64,000 bases of DNA from Fervidicoccaceae archaeon (GTDB lineage: Archaea > Thermoproteota > Thermoprotei_A > Sulfolobales > Fervidicoccaceae): assembly GCA_038878695.1 (NCBI GenBank), contig JAVZVD010000003.1:62001-126000 (forward strand). The letters run 5' to 3'. The notes beneath the pieces were generated by a model. It saw only the letters and a program-made list of their open reading frames with translations, did not search any database and had not been told where the DNA came from. Below are positions 3,389 through 42,775 of the stretch, in pieces (position 1 is the stretch's first letter; the number at the start of each line of letters is the position of its first letter). A program made the translations under genes and the position numbers.

Positions 3389-5683
3389 TTGAGCGCGTCG
3401 ACCTACGCCTTGATAGGTCTAGCGTTAGGGGCTCTCGGCTTAGGGCTGGCCTCTCTCAGCTTCTGGTATATCGAGAGACTGCCAAAGGGCACGGAGAGAA
3501 TGGTCGAGGTCTGGAGAGCGATACGCGAGGGCAGCTCGGCGTACATGAGGAGGCAACTGAAGACGATCATGAGCTTCTCGGCGATCATGGCCGCCGTGGC
3601 GGCTTTCTCCGTCTACGTTGGCTATAGGATCCGAGTTCTCCCAACGAGGCCCGAGCTCTCCGATGAGGTGATATTGGAGTCCGCGTTGATAGGAGCCTCG
3701 GTGATCCTGGGCTCTCTAGCTTCGCTCTTCGCGGCGTTCCTGAGCATGGACGCCTCGACGAGAGCCAACGTGAGGATGGCGGAGGGAGCTAGAGTCGGCA
3801 CGTGGAACGCGCTACGCATAGCCGTTCTAGGAGGCTCGGTGCTGGGCTTCTCCGTTCCATCGATGAGCCTCTTCGGGATATCCGCCCTCTACTTGCTCTA
3901 CTCCTCGCTCGTGGGCGGCGGAGGGCCCCTAGAGCTTAGGCTGGCGCTCGACGCGGTGGCCGGATTTGCCTTCGGAGCCAGTCTCTCAGCTCTCTTCGCG
4001 CAACTCGGCGGGGGCATCTATACTAAGGCGGCGGACATAGGAGCCGACCTCGTGGGCAAGGTCGAGGCGGGCATACCCGAGGACGATCCGAGGAATCCCG
4101 CCGTGATAGCCGACCAGGTCGGAGATAACGTGGGCGACTGCGCGGGGAGAGGAGCTGACGTCTTCGAGTCGGTCACGGCCGAGACCCTGGGCGCGATGCT
4201 CATAGGATGGGCAGTCTACCTATTGCTCGCGCAGTCGGGCGTAGACCACGTCGAGGCGTCGAAGTACATTTTCTTGCCGCTCTTGATGGCTGGCGTGGGC
4301 GTGCTCTCGACTATTCCTGGCGTCTTCTTGGCGTCCCATCAAAAGAGATTCAAAGAGCCCGTGGAGCCCATGAGGAACGCCGTGATGCTGTCGGGCCTAG
4401 CAGCGGTCGCGGGCATCGCGGCGACGCTGAGAGTCGTGGTCCCCGAGTCGTGGGCCCACATGTTAGCCGCTACGCTCTGCGGAGTCGCCGCGTCGGTGTT
4501 GATAGTGTTGCTCACGAATCTCTACACCGCCAGCAGGGCTAGAGCCGTGGTGGAGATCGCCGAGGCCTCGATAAGCGGCCCCGCGATAACGATTCTCCAA
4601 GGCCTCGGAGTAGGCATGAGAGCCACGGCGCTCCCAATAATCGTTATATCGATAGCGCTGGCTACTTCCTTCGTGATAGGGGTCGATGCCGCGCCTTCGC
4701 TGGGCTTAGCCCACTCTGGCGTCGACTCGCGGCTCGCCGAGTTCATAGCGGGAGTCTACGGAACGGCGCTGGCCACCATGGGGATGCTCGCTCTCTCGGG
4801 AATCATCATGACGCTCGACGGGGCTGGCCCCATCTCGGATAACGCCGGGGGGATAGCCGAGATGAGCGGTCTCGAGAGCGATGTAAGAGAGAGGCTGGAG
4901 CCCCTCGATGCCCTCGGTAACGTCACCAAGGCCTTAACGAAGGGCTACGCCATGGGGTCGGCCGCTCTCGCCTCTCTTCTGCTCTTCCAAGCCTTCGTGC
5001 AGGACTACGTGGCTAGAGACCCATCCGTCCTCACGGCGATCAACGGTGGAGTGACCATAGACGCCGAGGGCTTCCTCTCGGCTCTCAGCGGGTTCCTAGA
5101 CAAGCTCCTCTTGGTTAGGCCCGAGATCGTCATCAGCGTCATCATTGGAGCCATGCTGCCCTTCCTCTTCTCGGCTCTGGCCCTCAGGGCTGTCGCCAGA
5201 GCCGCCTTTCATATGGTCGAGGAGGTTAGGAGGCAGTTTAGAGAGAGGCCGGGGATCCTCGAGGGTAAGGAGAAGCCCGACTATTATCGAGCCGTCGACG
5301 TGAGCACGAGCTTCGCTCTGAGGAATATGACTGCTCCGGCCCTCGTCGTCATAGCGACCCCCCTCATCGTGGGCGCCCTCTTCGGCGGACCGGCGGTGGG
5401 GGCCCTAGTGATAGGAGCTACGGCGAGCGCCATATCTCTCGCGATAACAATGATGTGGGGCGGAGCGGCCTGGGATAACGCCAAGAAGTACATAGAGTCG
5501 GGCCACTTCGGCGGCAAAAGATCACCGGCTCACGCGGCGGCAGTAGTTGGCGACACCGTGGGGGACCCGCTGAAGGATACCGCCGGCCCCTCGCTCCACA
5601 TAGTAATCAAGCTGCTCAACACGATATCGCTCGTCTTCATACCGCTGTACATGCTGTGGCTATTGCAGGGAGTCTTCCCATGA
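3389..5683 (+). CDS. hppA: Membrane-bound proton-pumping pyrophosphatase, K+-independent type
   Basis: Integral membrane enzyme that hydrolyses pyrophosphate and pumps H+ out of the cell. Many hydrophobic segments surround the cytoplasmic active site: GADLVGKVE, then DDPRNPAVIADQVGDNVGDC, and the C-terminal motif DTVGDPLKDTAGPS. At 4928-4930 the motif GNVTKALTKG carries Lys where K+-dependent enzymes have Ala, which predicts the K+-independent class. The start is chosen as TTG 3389: a TATA-like ataattttaa at 3338-3347 overlaps the alternative ATG at 3335 and would start transcripts near 3370, and ggtgg lies just upstream of 3389. With the longer start the protein has 782 residues, with the shorter 764. 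Confidence 0.93.
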   Translation: MSASTYALIGLALGALGLGLASLSFWYIERLPKGTERMVEVWRAIREGSSAYMRRQLKTIMSFSAIMAAVAAFSVYVGYRIRVLPTRPELSDEVILESALIGASVILGSLASLFAAFLSMDASTRANVRMAEGARVGTWNALRIAVLGGSVLGFSVPSMSLFGISALYLLYSSLVGGGGPLELRLALDAVAGFAFGASLSALFAQLGGGIYTKAADIGADLVGKVEAGIPEDDPRNPAVIADQVGDNVGDCAGRGADVFESVTAETLGAMLIGWAVYLLLAQSGVDHVEASKYIFLPLLMAGVGVLSTIPGVFLASHQKRFKEPVEPMRNAVMLSGLAAVAGIAATLRVVVPESWAHMLAATLCGVAASVLIVLLTNLYTASRARAVVEIAEASISGPAITILQGLGVGMRATALPIIVISIALATSFVIGVDAAPSLGLAHSGVDSRLAEFIAGVYGTALATMGMLALSGIIMTLDGAGPISDNAGGIAEMSGLESDVRERLEPLDALGNVTKALTKGYAMGSAALASLLLFQAFVQDYVARDPSVLTAINGGVTIDAEGFLSALSGFLDKLLLVRPEIVISVIIGAMLPFLFSALALRAVARAAFHMVEEVRRQFRERPGILEGKEKPDYYRAVDVSTSFALRNMTAPALVVIATPLIVGALFGGPAVGALVIGATASAISLAITMMWGGAAWDNAKKYIESGHFGGKRSPAHAAAVVGDTVGDPLKDTAGPSLHIVIKLLNTISLVFIPLYMLWLLQGVFP

Positions 5684-5719
5684 AGGCTCTTTCGCTGTGA
5701 TGCGCCTCTTAGAGAAATC

Positions 5720-5727
5720 TTTTTAAA
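5720..5727 (+). promoter_or_regulatory. TATA box for the metal-chelate ABC importer operon
   Basis: The box tttttaaa is centred about 27 bases before the GTG at 5751. An archaeal transcript would therefore begin at or next to the start codon, giving a leaderless mRNA for the binding-protein gene and the two genes behind it. Confidence 0.6.
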
Positions 5728-5750
5728 TAAAACCTGGATTCCTTAGCCAG

Positions 5751-6869
5751 GTGGCTCTCGTGAGCTCTCGCCTTCACGCCTTAGCTCTCGCTCTCTCGTT
5801 GATCGCGATAGCATCCGTCGTGGCCTCCTACGAGGTAGCGGAGCGGCGCCTCGATCTAATTCAAACTAGACTGGAGGCCGTCGAGGCTAAGCTGGAGAAG
5901 CCGAGCGCGTTCCCCGTTCAGCTCGTAGATTCGCTGGGACGCTCGGTGGTGATAGTCAACGAGCCTAAGCGCATAGTCAGCATAGCTCCCTCGACCACCG
6001 AGATCCTCTTCGCGATCGGAGCCGGGGAGAAGGTCGTCGGAGTCGATAGATTTTCTAATTATCCGCCCGATGTGGTGGAGCTCGCGCGAGCTGGCAAAAT
6101 ACAATACGTGGGAGACTTCATCAATCCCAGTATCGAGACAATACTTAAGTTGAGGCCGGATCTCGTAGTCGGAACTGGAGGAGTGCAGGCTAGACACATC
6201 GAGGCCCTCGCCTCTCGGGGCCTCACGGTTCTAGCCCTCGATGCCGAGAACCTGGAGGAGCTGTACAGGTGCATCCTCCTCTTAGGAGTCGCGACCGGCG
6301 AGAGCGAGAGAGCGAGAGCACTGGTCGAGGAGTTGAAAGCCAACTTATCGCTCATCGAGAGCCTGTCGAGCGGAGCGCCGAGCAGGCCGACGGCGCTTTT
6401 AATCGTGTGGGTTGAGCCCATATACGCGGCCGGAGGAGCGAGTTGGATCAACGATTTGATCGAGATCGCCGGGGGCATCAACGTCCTAGCAAATGTTTCG
6501 ACCGCTTGGCCGCAGCTCTCGGTGGAGACGCTCCTAAGACTCGACCCCGACGTCGTGATTCTCACGGAGCACGCGGGCGGTCTCGCGAACTCTGAGCAAG
6601 CTCTAAGCTGGCTGAGGAGTCTCCCCGGCGGGGGAGAGCTCAAGGCCGTAAAGAGCGGCAGAGTCTACATGGTCCATGGCGACCTCAACGACGCTTTCTC
6701 GAGACCTTCGCCCAGAGTGCCCGTCGTGGCGGCCTCTCTCCTCGCGGTGTTGCACCCGGAGCTTCTAGGCGTTGGCGAGCTGCCCAAGGATCTCAGCTTA
6801 AGCGACGTGGTGCCACTCCTCTGGCGCGTGGTCAACGCCACGACGACGAGCGTGGCCGTAGCTCGATGA
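5751..6869 (+). CDS. ABC transporter substrate-binding protein, Fe-siderophore/cobalamin (BtuF-like) family
   Basis: Extracytoplasmic receptor of an iron-chelate or vitamin B12 importer. Residues 7-27 form one hydrophobic segment that can serve as signal peptide or membrane anchor, followed by a short charged coiled linker (about 28-52). The class III binding-protein fold begins at VDSLGR...VVIVNEPKRIVSIAPSTTEILFAIGAG, typical of BtuF/FecB, with a second lobe from about residue 215. GTG 5751 is used because the TATA box places the transcript start there. It is the first gene of an operon with the permease (4 bases downstream) and ATPase. Whether the ligand is a corrinoid or an iron chelate is not visible; neither biosynthetic pathway is next to it. 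Confidence 0.88.
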   Translation: MALVSSRLHALALALSLIAIASVVASYEVAERRLDLIQTRLEAVEAKLEKPSAFPVQLVDSLGRSVVIVNEPKRIVSIAPSTTEILFAIGAGEKVVGVDRFSNYPPDVVELARAGKIQYVGDFINPSIETILKLRPDLVVGTGGVQARHIEALASRGLTVLALDAENLEELYRCILLLGVATGESERARALVEELKANLSLIESLSSGAPSRPTALLIVWVEPIYAAGGASWINDLIEIAGGINVLANVSTAWPQLSVETLLRLDPDVVILTEHAGGLANSEQALSWLRSLPGGGELKAVKSGRVYMVHGDLNDAFSRPSPRVPVVAASLLAVLHPELLGVGELPKDLSLSDVVPLLWRVVNATTTSVAVAR

Positions 6870-9098: not shown

Positions 9099-10145
9099 GT
9101 GAAGCCTCGGAGCGCTGACGCTCGAGTCGAGGCCTCGGGGGCCGTCGTGCTCGGGCGAGCAGTAGAGGTCGACGGGTACGCCGGAAGACCCTACAGAGTC
9201 GTTACGCACATACATCGCGACCACTTGAGGGGGCTCCCCGAAAGCCGGAGAGCAGCGGCCGCAATATTAGCGACCGAGGCAACGGTCGAGATGCTCGAGG
9301 CGTTAGGCCATAGACTCCCTCGGAGTAGGACCCTGAGCCTCGCGCTGGGGCGCAGCTTGGAGCTCCCGAGCGGGGAGAGACTCACTCTCGTAAGTTCTAG
9401 GCACGTGATAGGCAGCTGTCAGGTGCTGGTGGAGACAAGCGACGGCTCTCTCATCGGGTACACCAGCGATTTCAAGCTCCCGGGGACCCCTCCAATGAGG
9501 GATCTCGACATATTAGTGATAGATGCCACGTACGGCGATCCCCGCATGGTGAGGAAGTTCAAGAGAGAAATCGACGTGCTGTTCGCGGACCTCGTGGCCA
9601 CGATAATGTCGCGGGGGCTCTCGGCGAGGGTCCTGGCCTACCATGGCAAGCTTCAGGAGGCAATGGAGATCCTGAGGCTCCACGGCATCGACGCTCCCTT
9701 CGTGCTCCCGGACAGAGTATACGAATTGACGACCGTGGCCAGGAGACACGGAGCGCGCATCTCAGATTATCTGGCTGAGGGCACGAAGGAGGCTGACGAC
9801 GCCGTGAGGAGCGGATGGTTCGTTGAGTTTCAACACATGTCTCGCGCGGGCAGGCCTAGGAGGGGAGTAGTCGACATCATTCTCACGGGCTGGCTCTTCG
9901 ACGAGCCCATAAAACGCGTAGATGCCGGAGCCCGAGAAATCTACTACGTGGCCCTCAGCGACCACGCGGATTTCGAGGACACGCTGCTCTATCTAGACGA
10001 TGCTAGGCCTAGGCTCGTAGTCGTCGACGCGAGCAGGGCGAGCGCTCCGACGGCTGCCATCTTCTCGCGCGAGGTCAGATCGAGGCTCGGCCTCGAGGCC
10101 CTCCCCCTTCCCGAGACCTCGAGGAGACTCGAGGTTGAGGACTAA
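9099..10145 (+). CDS. MBL-fold exonuclease / mRNA 3'-end-processing-like metallohydrolase
   Basis: Predicted zinc-dependent nuclease of the metallo-beta-lactamase superfamily, in the branch of SNM1 and CPSF-like archaeal proteins. The metal motif THIHRDHL is intact, followed by SSRHVIGSCQVLVE and TSDFKLPG (the family's later His and Asp ligands), VIDATYGDP, and a C-terminal LSDHADFEDTL that supplies another metal-binding His. GTG 9099 is chosen from the promoter position; an upstream ATG at 9048 gives 17 more residues of unusual sequence. It runs towards the PCNA gene, so a DNA- or RNA-repair role is plausible but not shown. Confidence 0.75.
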   Translation: MKPRSADARVEASGAVVLGRAVEVDGYAGRPYRVVTHIHRDHLRGLPESRRAAAAILATEATVEMLEALGHRLPRSRTLSLALGRSLELPSGERLTLVSSRHVIGSCQVLVETSDGSLIGYTSDFKLPGTPPMRDLDILVIDATYGDPRMVRKFKREIDVLFADLVATIMSRGLSARVLAYHGKLQEAMEILRLHGIDAPFVLPDRVYELTTVARRHGARISDYLAEGTKEADDAVRSGWFVEFQHMSRAGRPRRGVVDIILTGWLFDEPIKRVDAGAREIYYVALSDHADFEDTLLYLDDARPRLVVVDASRASAPTAAIFSREVRSRLGLEALPLPETSRRLEVED

Positions 10146-11036: not shown

Positions 11037-11245
11037 GGGCCCGTAGCTCAGCCAGGCAGAGCGGCGGTCGATCCGCTCGGCGCGTCGCGCTCGGGGGATC
11101 GGCCGGGGCTCCAGTCATCGCGCTGAGAGGACCCGGCCCCGAGGAGTCGGGGTCTACGGGTCTGACGACCCCCATGGGGGATGAGCTGTGACTGGAGAGT
11201 GGAGAGACCCGTAGGTCGGGGGTTCGAATCCCCCCGGGCCCACCA
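11037..11245 (+). tRNA. tRNA-Trp(CCA) with two introns, one at the non-canonical 30/31 site
   Basis: Exons 11037-11067, 11108-11114 and 11207-11242 join into a 74-base cloverleaf: acceptor GGGCCCG/CGGGCCC, D arm GCTC/GAGC, anticodon stem GCGGG/CCCGT, loop CTCCAGA, T arm GGGGG TTCGAAT CCCCC, discriminator A and an encoded CCA. Intron 1 (11068-11107) lies between positions 30 and 31; its BHB is strict, with CGGC (11062-11065) paired to GCCG (11102-11105), 3-base bulges on both sides and inner helix CGATCC/GGATCG. Intron 2 (11115-11206) lies at 37/38 with CTCC (11109-11112) paired to GGAG (11201-11204). A TATA-like gttttaag lies at 10992-10999. Confidence 0.92.
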
Positions 11246-11322
11246 ATCGTCGGAATCTCTCCGACGAAGCAATTAGAAAAGAGAGTGGAAGGAAGGTTTT
11301 TAACGCAGATCGGTCAAGCATC

Positions 11323-11382
11323 AGCCGAGCGGCAGCGGAGAGAGCCCCCGTGACCGGGGTTCGAATCCCCGCCCGGCTACCA
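11323..11382 (+). tRNA. 3' half of a split (or truncated) tRNA-Gln, probably CTG
   Basis: Bases 11345-11379 are the 3' part of a tRNA: anticodon-stem 3' strand CCCCG, variable loop TGAC, T arm CGGGG TTCGAAT CCCCG, acceptor 3' strand CCCGGCT, discriminator A, encoded CCA (11380-11382). The U72/A73 end and TGAC loop are tRNA-Gln-like. No 5' half precedes it. A TATA box gtttttaa (11296-11303) predicts transcription from about 11325, so the RNA has only a GC-rich leader of about 20 bases. The end of the leader, AGAG plus bulge ag^c, has BHB geometry and would pair with CTCT, i.e. an anticodon loop with CTG. A decayed tRNA copy is the main alternative. Confidence 0.6.
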
Positions 11383-12174
11383 TCTCTCCTCCGGCCCCGC
11401 GCTCCTCGCTCCGCGTCGGTCTCCTCGTCTGCTCGCGGCCTCCCACTTCTTGTTGAAGATGGCAAAGATCTCTCGCGCTCGCACGTCGCCTATCCCCCTG
11501 ACTGTCTTGAGCTCTGAGATCGAGGCATTGGCCAGCTCTCTCAGCGTCCCGAATCTCTCGAGCAGTCTCAGCCCGAGCTCGCGCCCGGCCAAGACCGACG
11601 CGACGGCCTCGATTTTACTTCGGACGTCAGCTCTCGCGCCCTTTACATGGTAAATAGAGTGACGCCTCACGGCCTCGTCGAGCTCCGCTGGAGAGCTCTC
11701 CGAGAGCTCTCGTTTGCGCTCGGCTACCTTCCTGGCTAGCCACTCTATCGTCGTCTCTTCATCGATCGACAACACCACCGTGACTCCATAGCGTCTCTGA
11801 GAGAGCTCAAGCACGCGCATCACCGAGAGGGGCTCAACGGACCTATTGCTCAACGTACGGCTCACGTCGCCCTCAATGAGTAGGTAGACCTCGACTCGAG
11901 CCTTCGAGGCTGCGGCTCGGAGCCTGGCCAGCTGAGACCATATTCTCTCATCGATCACGCTGTTGATCAAATCATCGACAGTTTTCCTCTCTATTAATGC
12001 GCAGCCGAGTCCGGAAGAGGGCACCGCGAAGTCTCCCTCCTCCAGCTTCATAAGCCCGACTTTCAAGCCGCGACGCTCCAAGGCCTCTTTGAAGATGGGG
12101 TTAAGCGCGTGCTCTCTCGTGTCGATTATTACGTCCAGGTCTTCGAGAAATGATTGACCACGGAGCGCCCCCAA
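11377..12174 (-). CDS. xpf: XPF/Mus81-family structure-specific endonuclease (crenarchaeal short form)
   Basis: Nuclease that cuts 3' flaps and branched DNA in repair, active as a dimer bound to PCNA. The ERCC4 nuclease domain (about residues 12-150) has IIDTREH, EEGDFAV and the catalytic IERKTVDDL; a tandem helix-hairpin-helix domain follows (about 185-245, GLRLLERFGTLRELANASISEL, VRGIGDVRAREIF). There is no helicase domain, as in crenarchaeal XPF. The basic tail after residue 245 shows no obvious PCNA-interaction motif. TTG 12174 is used. Its stop codon (11377-11379) overlaps the last bases of the convergent tRNA-Gln half. Confidence 0.93.
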   Translation of the reverse strand: MGALRGQSFLEDLDVIIDTREHALNPIFKEALERRGLKVGLMKLEEGDFAVPSSGLGCALIERKTVDDLINSVIDERIWSQLARLRAAASKARVEVYLLIEGDVSRTLSNRSVEPLSVMRVLELSQRRYGVTVVLSIDEETTIEWLARKVAERKRELSESSPAELDEAVRRHSIYHVKGARADVRSKIEAVASVLAGRELGLRLLERFGTLRELANASISELKTVRGIGDVRAREIFAIFNKKWEAASRRGDRRGARSAGPEERW

Positions 12175-14341: not shown

Positions 14342-14434
14342 TGGAGCCGCCGCCGGGATTCGAACCCGGGACCTCCGCCTGTCGGGCCGCCCGAGTTACC
14401 AGGGCGGCGCTCCACCGAGCTGAGCTACGGCGGC
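14342..14434 (-). tRNA. tRNA-Thr(GGT) with a 16-base intron at 37/38
   Basis: On the minus strand the acceptor GCCGCCG pairs with CGGCGGC, the discriminator is T as in archaeal tRNA-Thr, and CCA is encoded (14342-14344). D arm GCTC/GAGC, anticodon stem CCGCC/GGCGG, loop CTGGTAA (anticodon GGT), T arm CCGGG TTCGAAT CCCGG. The intron is 14381-14396 and folds as CGGG-CGG-CCCG. Its BHB is relaxed: exon CTGG faces intron CCCG with one mismatch. Mature length is 74 bases. Confidence 0.92.
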
Positions 14435-42655: not shown

Positions 42656-42775
42656 GGCCCCGTGGCCCAGCCAGGATAGGGCGCCGGCCTCCTAATCCGA
42701 CCGCGATACCCCCGGGGGCTCGCGATAGCCGGAGAGAGCCGGTGGTCGGGGGTTCGAATCCCCCCGGGGCCGCCA
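42656..42775 (+). tRNA. tRNA-Arg(CCT) with a 42-base intron at 37/38
   Basis: Acceptor GGCCCCG/CGGGGCC, discriminator G, encoded CCA (42773-42775); D arm GCCC/GGGC; anticodon stem CCGGC/GCCGG; loop CTCCTAA (anticodon CCT); T arm GGGGG TTCGAAT CCCCC. The intron is 42695-42736. Exon CTCC (42689-42692) pairs with intron GGAG (42731-42734), giving the same central BHB helix as in the Trp 37/38 intron. A TATA-like gataaat lies at 42613-42619. Confidence 0.93.

Follow-up and report, generated by a model that had tools for sequence, protein, structure and literature searches.

A short element at 11327-11382 on the plus strand of the window, which is the whole 64,000-nt stretch of a Fervidicoccaceae archaeon genome analysed here (C3:62001-126000; genome handle G000, 1,112,410 bases in 5 contigs, listed as 98.3% complete), looks like the 3′ half of a glutamine tRNA gene standing alone. 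Is it a working half gene, or what is left of a tRNA gene that was copied or lost? We are highly confident, from the genome sequences compared below, that it is the 3′-half gene of a split tRNA-Gln(CTG) whose RNA would be trans-spliced to a 5′ half encoded on another contig, and that a second pair of half genes provides tRNA-Gln(TTG).

The 3′ half gene in the window

The 3′ exon is 38 nt long (11345-11382, or C3:73345-73382) and represents tRNA positions 38-73 plus an encoded CCA. It reads CCCCCG-TGAC-CGGGG-TTCGAAT-CCCCG-CCCGGCT-A-CCA: C38 at 11345, CCCCG at 11346-11350, TGAC, the T arm at 11355-11371, the acceptor strand CCCGGCT at 11372-11378, A73 at 11379, and CCA at 11380-11382. Upstream is a leader (11327-11344) in three parts: the strand GAGCGGCAGCGG (11327-11338), complementary to CCGCTGCCGCTC in the trailer of the CTG 5′ half described below; AGAG (11339-11342), which would pair with C32-U35 of the 5′ half (4 of 4 pairs) and so supply the 3′ side of the central 4-bp helix in a bulge-helix-bulge (BHB); and the start of the 3-nt bulge AG^C (11343-11345). 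Cleavage is predicted between 11344 and 11345, following the canonical hBHBh′ rule and the intact genes of relatives, which read CTCTGG-C at the junction. The lone half that an earlier sequence-only reading had reported at 11323-11382, a span taking in exon and leader, is real. Neither ARAGORN nor the Rfam tRNA model at its gathering cut-off calls a tRNA here, and an 18-position pattern for tRNA-Gln 5′ parts, searched with at most 3 mismatches, has no perfect match within the range of the window.

Partner halves elsewhere in the genome

Across G000 the 5′-part pattern gave two perfect matches, both of them 5′ halves, and six matches with 3 mismatches. The 5′ half of tRNA-Gln(CTG) is at C1:573532-573569 (minus strand); it consists of AGCCGGGTCGTCTAGCGGCCAAGGATGCGGGGCTCTGG, ending in CTCTGG, and is followed by an A and the trailer CCGCTGCCGCTCCGCC. 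The sequence-only reading had predicted a separate 5′ half of this form (ending CGGGG-CTCTGG, then one base and the trailer CCGCTGCCGCTCGGCT), and the predicted and found trailers agree in 14 of 16 letters. An otherwise identical 5′ half with the TTG anticodon, at C3:229499 (plus strand), is followed by the trailer ACCTCCCCCACCC. The T-arm and acceptor sequence of the window half has exactly two copies in G000, one in the window and one at C2:22850 (plus strand); the latter, the putative 3′ partner for tRNA-Gln(TTG), is preceded by GGGTGGGGGAGG-GAAG-AG, where GGGTGGGGGAGG is the complement of the TTG trailer. The earlier reader could not have seen that tRNA-Gln(TTG) is likewise split, or that the whole family (f1) of G000 has this arrangement.

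The halves lie at separate loci, and in neither pair do the partners share a contig (C1 has the 5′ and C3 the 3′ half for CTG; C3 has the 5′ and C2 the 3′ half for TTG), so the order of a permuted tRNA, with the 3′ half just upstream of the 5′ half, does not apply. Assembly might give a similar picture by breaking and misjoining a tRNA-Gln gene that is in fact intact or intron-bearing, and G000 is a draft in five contigs; but none of the four half loci is closer than 12 kb to a contig end, their neighbours are conserved in other genomes, the same state is found in 8 of 8 genomes of family f1 (including a single-contig genome of 1,319,206 bases), and matching complementary tails are not what misassembly would be expected to produce. 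We regard such an artefact as highly improbable.

Pairing of the halves and the predicted joined tRNA

Both G000 pairs can form the same structure, that is, a helix (the anticodon stem CGGGG/CCCCG), a 3-nt bulge on each side (GGA/AGC), a 4-bp central helix (CTCT/AGAG in the CTG pair, CTTT/GAAG in the TTG pair), and an outer helix of 12 (CTG) or 13 (TTG, G-U included) consecutive in-register pairs. The AGAG-AG^C junction proposed at the outset to pair with CTCT of the anticodon loop is borne out at all four positions of the central helix. Each prediction of the sequence-only reading that can be checked on sequence has held. Outer-duplex energies are -30.1 kcal/mol for the CTG trailer with the window leader and -29.5 kcal/mol for the TTG trailer with the C2 leader, and the swapped pairs are weaker (-17.7 and -5.5 kcal/mol). 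When leaders were shuffled, an equally long complement arose in 0 of 10,000 (CTG) and 2 of 10,000 (TTG) shuffles, and an equally long in-register run in 0 of 10,000 for either pair. By this measure, the complementarity between the trailer of the 5′ half and the window leader is not due to chance.

Put in register, the CTG halves give a canonical BHB with the joint at 37/38, and ARAGORN reads the joined halves as tRNA-Gln(ctg) and tRNA-Gln(ttg). Over all 76 letters the joined CTG sequence is identical to intact tRNA-Gln(CTG) genes in 15 loci fetched from other families in the order, which represent 13 genes because L072/L174 and L086/L189 are each one place fetched twice; no intact gene identical to the joined TTG sequence was present among the fetched loci.

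We propose that the window half has a promoter to itself near 11293-11304, and that its GC-rich leader would base-pair in trans with the CTG 5′-half trailer, giving a helix, bulge, 4-bp helix, bulge, and helix. The tRNA splicing endonuclease would cut at GG^A and AG^C, as in known archaeal tRNA splicing, and ligation of the ends at 37/38 would yield a full tRNA-Gln(CTG). The second pair (5′ half at C3:229499, 3′ half at C2:22850) would make tRNA-Gln(TTG) independently.

Other sources of glutamine tRNA

The Rfam tRNA model finds 41 genes above its cut-off in G000, and ARAGORN names none of them glutamine, bearing in mind that its names can mislead (wrong isotypes for some intron-bearing tRNAs; an 824-nt “tRNA-SeC” in L027 ends in the second 3′ half). 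The T-loop string GGTTCRANTCC occurs at 49 places; beyond the 41 genes and the two Gln 3′ halves, these include a tRNA at 11041-11245 of the window and, by reading, an intron-bearing tRNA-Pro(CGG), and the remaining matches resemble coding or other non-tRNA sequence. There is also an intron-bearing initiator tRNA at C1:182920. With identities assigned by eye and ARAGORN corrected at introns, the tally is 44 tRNAs plus two Gln, the standard archaeal set of 46. The initiator tRNA-Met at C1:182920 (L227) apparently has several introns, one of them within the T arm.

No intact tRNA-Gln, CTG or TTG, was found in this 98.3% complete genome by Rfam, ARAGORN, or pattern searches; an intact CTG gene was the finding that the sequence-only reading had said to look for. 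Beyond the four half genes we found no source of glutamine tRNA in G000, which appears to have no whole glutamine tRNA gene and to make each of these tRNAs as two RNA halves. This bears on the possibility that the fragment is an integration scar (a tRNA 3′ end duplicated by a mobile element) or the decayed remnant of a lost gene. Archaeal integrative elements usually attach at tRNA 3′ halves, and the fragment adjoins another tRNA gene; but there is no intact tRNA-Gln as a source, and its T-arm and acceptor sequence has no copy in the genome beyond the two orphan 3′ halves. Moreover, a 12-bp partner of the leader sits exactly behind a 5′ half, the locus with its ERCC4-domain neighbor is kept in four other family f1 genomes, and no integrase was noticed by eye among the listed ORFs nearby. 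A scar or decayed copy is thus very unlikely, if somewhat less so than misassembly.

Promoters and splicing machinery

We learned a promoter motif from 30 tRNA upstream regions of G000 (median tRNA score 10.1) and applied it to the four half genes. The scores were 10.4 (5′ CTG), 8.8 (5′ TTG), 10.2 (window 3′), and 7.3 (C2 3′), and random 90-nt window stretches scored as high in 1.3%, 4.0%, 1.6%, and 9.6% of cases, respectively. All four half genes thus carry a TATA-like site. For the promoter claimed earlier for the window half, the candidate is the TATA/BRE-like element AAGGTTTTTAAC at 11293-11304 (plus strand); since 1.6% of random stretches score as high, its role as the promoter is only suggestive.

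G000 has two genes of the EndA family of splicing endonucleases (PF01974; 105.8 and 39.3 bits, cut-off 27). Crenarchaeal splicing endonucleases are heteromeric, as two subunit genes would fit. One subunit gene (9237-9704, minus strand, of L061, which is G000:C2:15000-30000) is about 1.4 kb from the C2 Gln 3′ half. In the same region, the product of 4775-6067 (plus strand) is ThyX-like by eye, with a middle part that resembles an intein-like insertion.

Distribution and history among relatives

Our survey covered 59 genomes including G000, 57 of which have a 5′ tRNA-Gln match (G039 and G057 are without one). We fetched 104 loci with a tRNA-Gln 5′ end, counting L150, which holds two genes, once; G026 and G035, whose 5′ matches were not listed, are left out of this set, as are 2-mismatch 5′ matches unlike tRNA-Gln. 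The 5′ end runs straight into the 3′ half in 46 of the 104 loci, and in another 32 the two are separated by 1-60 nt (introns, mostly at 37/38 by eye). Two have longer gaps, of 155 nt (G019, TTG) and 167 nt (G044, CTG), and 24 loci, from 16 genomes, are without a 3′ half in the downstream sequence fetched (284-1518 nt). These 16 genomes comprise 8 of 8 in family f1 (including G000), 6 of 6 surveyed in family f5, G013 (family f7), and G043 (family f8). The TTG genes of two f5 genomes are exceptions, being intact in G040 and intron-bearing in G011. In G011, whose CTG gene is split, the intron of the TTG gene (L096) interrupts the anticodon loop at an unusual position. As for 3′ matches that could be orphans by noise, inspection of the 59 genomes by eye showed that, outside the split genomes, the copies sat with a listed 5′ half; the exceptions are G030 (C154:57, at a contig start), G045 (an extra 3-mismatch copy at C1:1231713), G026, and G035.

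The longer gaps raise the reading that the two halves belong to one precursor with a very long intron, spliced in cis. Such forms do lie nearby in evolution, with the halves 167 nt and 155 nt apart in the two loci above and about 727 nt apart in G043, whose 3′ half is found downstream of its 5′ half and which may be a long cis form. In G000 the partners are on different contigs, which excludes a cis product there unless the assembly is wrong, and we give this explanation the least credence of all. In the CTG gene of G044 and the TTG gene of G019 (L075, L123), the halves share a strand and are separated by a stretch that includes TATA-like sequence, similar to the published tRNA-Asp of Aeropyrum pernix. 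It is possible that these two genes are intermediates between the intron-bearing and split states.

For split tRNA-Gln(CTG) and tRNA-Gln(TTG), pairing was surveyed in 18 genomes, with 26 5′ halves, 20 3′ halves, and 29 within-genome combinations, three of which, clearly mismatched, were set aside (one in G004 and two in G000). Each of the 26 5′ halves has a 3′ half in the same genome with which it pairs at -29.3 to -43.2 kcal/mol, and the 26 combinations that were kept have 10-16 consecutive Watson-Crick pairs; combinations from different families (n = 336) average -16.8 (sd 4.9), with a strongest value of -29.4 and a longest run of 10 (2 cases). Pairing is kept while the sequence differs between genera, as would be expected if trans pairing is under selection. 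Seven genomes, G002, G003, and G006 of family f1 and G021, G031, G048, and G055 of family f5, have by search two 5′ halves and one 3′ half (three of them are incomplete: G006 87%, G048 76%, G055 63%). Both 5′ trailers in these genomes pair with the single leader (-29.3 to -35.1 kcal/mol), and one 3′ half appears from this complementarity to serve both isoacceptors. Two 3′ halves are found in G000, where each leader is matched to one 5′ half, and in G004, where only the TTG 5′ half was found.

The neighbors of the halves are also shared. An ERCC4-domain nuclease gene (11377-12174, minus strand, in the window) is convergent with the window 3′ half and marks the same locus in G003, G006, G007, and, after its second 3′ half, G004. 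An intron-bearing tRNA follows the C2 3′ half of G000 and, likewise, the TTG-pairing 3′ half of G004; a nucleotidyltransferase-domain gene is downstream of the TTG 5′ half in G000, G001, G002, G003, G004, G005, and G007; and in G001, G005, and G004 the TTG 3′ half is 3.4-3.9 kb from the 5′ half, on the opposite strand. Because of these shared neighbors we argue that the TTG split probably predates the radiation of family f1.

A seryl-tRNA synthetase tree (26 of 30 genomes, G055, G009, G019, and G010 having no match; midpoint root, several open forks) places the f1 genomes together (100/100) and the f5 genomes together (100/99), with families that have contiguous genes elsewhere in the tree. 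Unless halves have re-fused, this topology points to at least two origins of split tRNA-Gln, and there may have been up to six, counting G013, G043, G044, and G019. (One scan of genome contigs with PCNA gave a single locus, from a distant Njordarchaeota genome.)

Several points weigh against the split reading. Expression and splicing are deduced from sequence; in many relatives the outer helix is one nucleotide out of register or is broken by an internal loop; even a looser pattern found no CTG 5′ half in G001, G004, G005, and G007, genomes that are 61-91% complete; and the promoter signal of the C2 3′ half is weak. Overall, we still hold the window half to be, very probably, part of a trans-spliced tRNA-Gln(CTG). 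As a broader view, which we favor with some reserve, tRNA-Gln would be a fission hot spot in this order: split at 37/38 at least twice and perhaps six times from intron-bearing ancestors, fixed family-wide, and with its 3′ half shared in several lineages; in G000, and probably G004, the 3′ halves would have been duplicated and their leaders matched. Living genomes would then hold every step, from intact gene to intron, internal promoter, adjacent halves, and dispersed halves.

Neighboring tRNA genes in the window

Upstream of the half, and separate from it, is an intron-rich tRNA gene (11041-11245, plus strand), by sequence and by elimination probably tRNA-Trp. Its acceptor is GGGCCCG/CGGGCCC, it has an interruption of about 130 nt with seemingly more than one intron, and a CTCCA string fits tRNA-Trp; both ARAGORN and Rfam missed it. 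Two further intron-bearing genes are a tRNA-Thr(GGT) at 14342-14434 (minus strand) and a tRNA-Arg(CCT) at 42656-42772 (plus strand).

Comparison with known split tRNAs

The split tRNAs of Caldivirga maquilingensis are of other isotypes, in a different order. Similar to the sharing seen here, fragments are exchanged between synonymous tRNAs in that species, whereas its split and tri-split tRNAs are made from up to three pieces, according to the relevant passages of a 2014 review, which gives 29 trans-spliced tRNA genes, with five species in its table (PMC4033280). The closest match by isotype is Nanoarchaeum equitans, in which separate halves, a Gln tRNA among them, are joined in trans at a BHB, and the 3′ half of tRNA-Glu is shared by two 5′ halves (PMC3218864, and for the shared half also PMC4033280), as apparently in the seven relatives above. 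The N. equitans tRNA-Gln(UUG) differs in its joint, at 32/33 rather than 37/38, and Table 1 of that paper has one Gln isoacceptor, while both are split in G000 (PMC3218864). N. equitans is, in addition, a host-dependent nanoarchaeon.

Aeropyrum pernix and Thermosphaera aggregans presumably belong to the same broad order as G000. Their split tRNA-Asp(GUC), as described in the sections of PMC3218864 drawn on here, has the 37/38 joint and a canonical hBHBh′ followed by a GC-rich stem, and in A. pernix is supported by RT-PCR and northern analysis; it is a different tRNA with adjacent halves, whereas the halves in the family of G000 are dispersed and fixed family-wide, and its authors see two recent independent events in the two species (PMC3218864). 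Staphylothermus tRNA-Lys(CUU) resembles our case in that its halves lie apart, pair in trans over 13 nt that include a compensating change, and have conserved neighbors, and differs in isotype, in its joint at 30/31, and in the distance between the halves, about 4.5 kb (PMC3218864). The same sections give split tRNAs for A. pernix, T. aggregans, Staphylothermus, and N. equitans, with the UUG isoacceptor of N. equitans as the single Gln (PMC3218864), and we found no report of a split tRNA-Gln in this order in the portions of the open-licence literature consulted, while annotation in tRNA databases may exist.

Split tRNAs are therefore known as a kind, and the G000 instance, its breadth, and its recurrence appear to be new. 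They are usually treated as rarities; here no intact glutamine tRNA gene was found in a whole family, so that the split condition seems to have persisted through long evolutionary times and to be no transient accident. Related genomes have this one tRNA interrupted at one position by a cis intron, as adjacent halves, or as dispersed halves, so the succession of events over which split-early and split-late views differ can be tested, and the half genes predict exact transcripts in cultured relatives.
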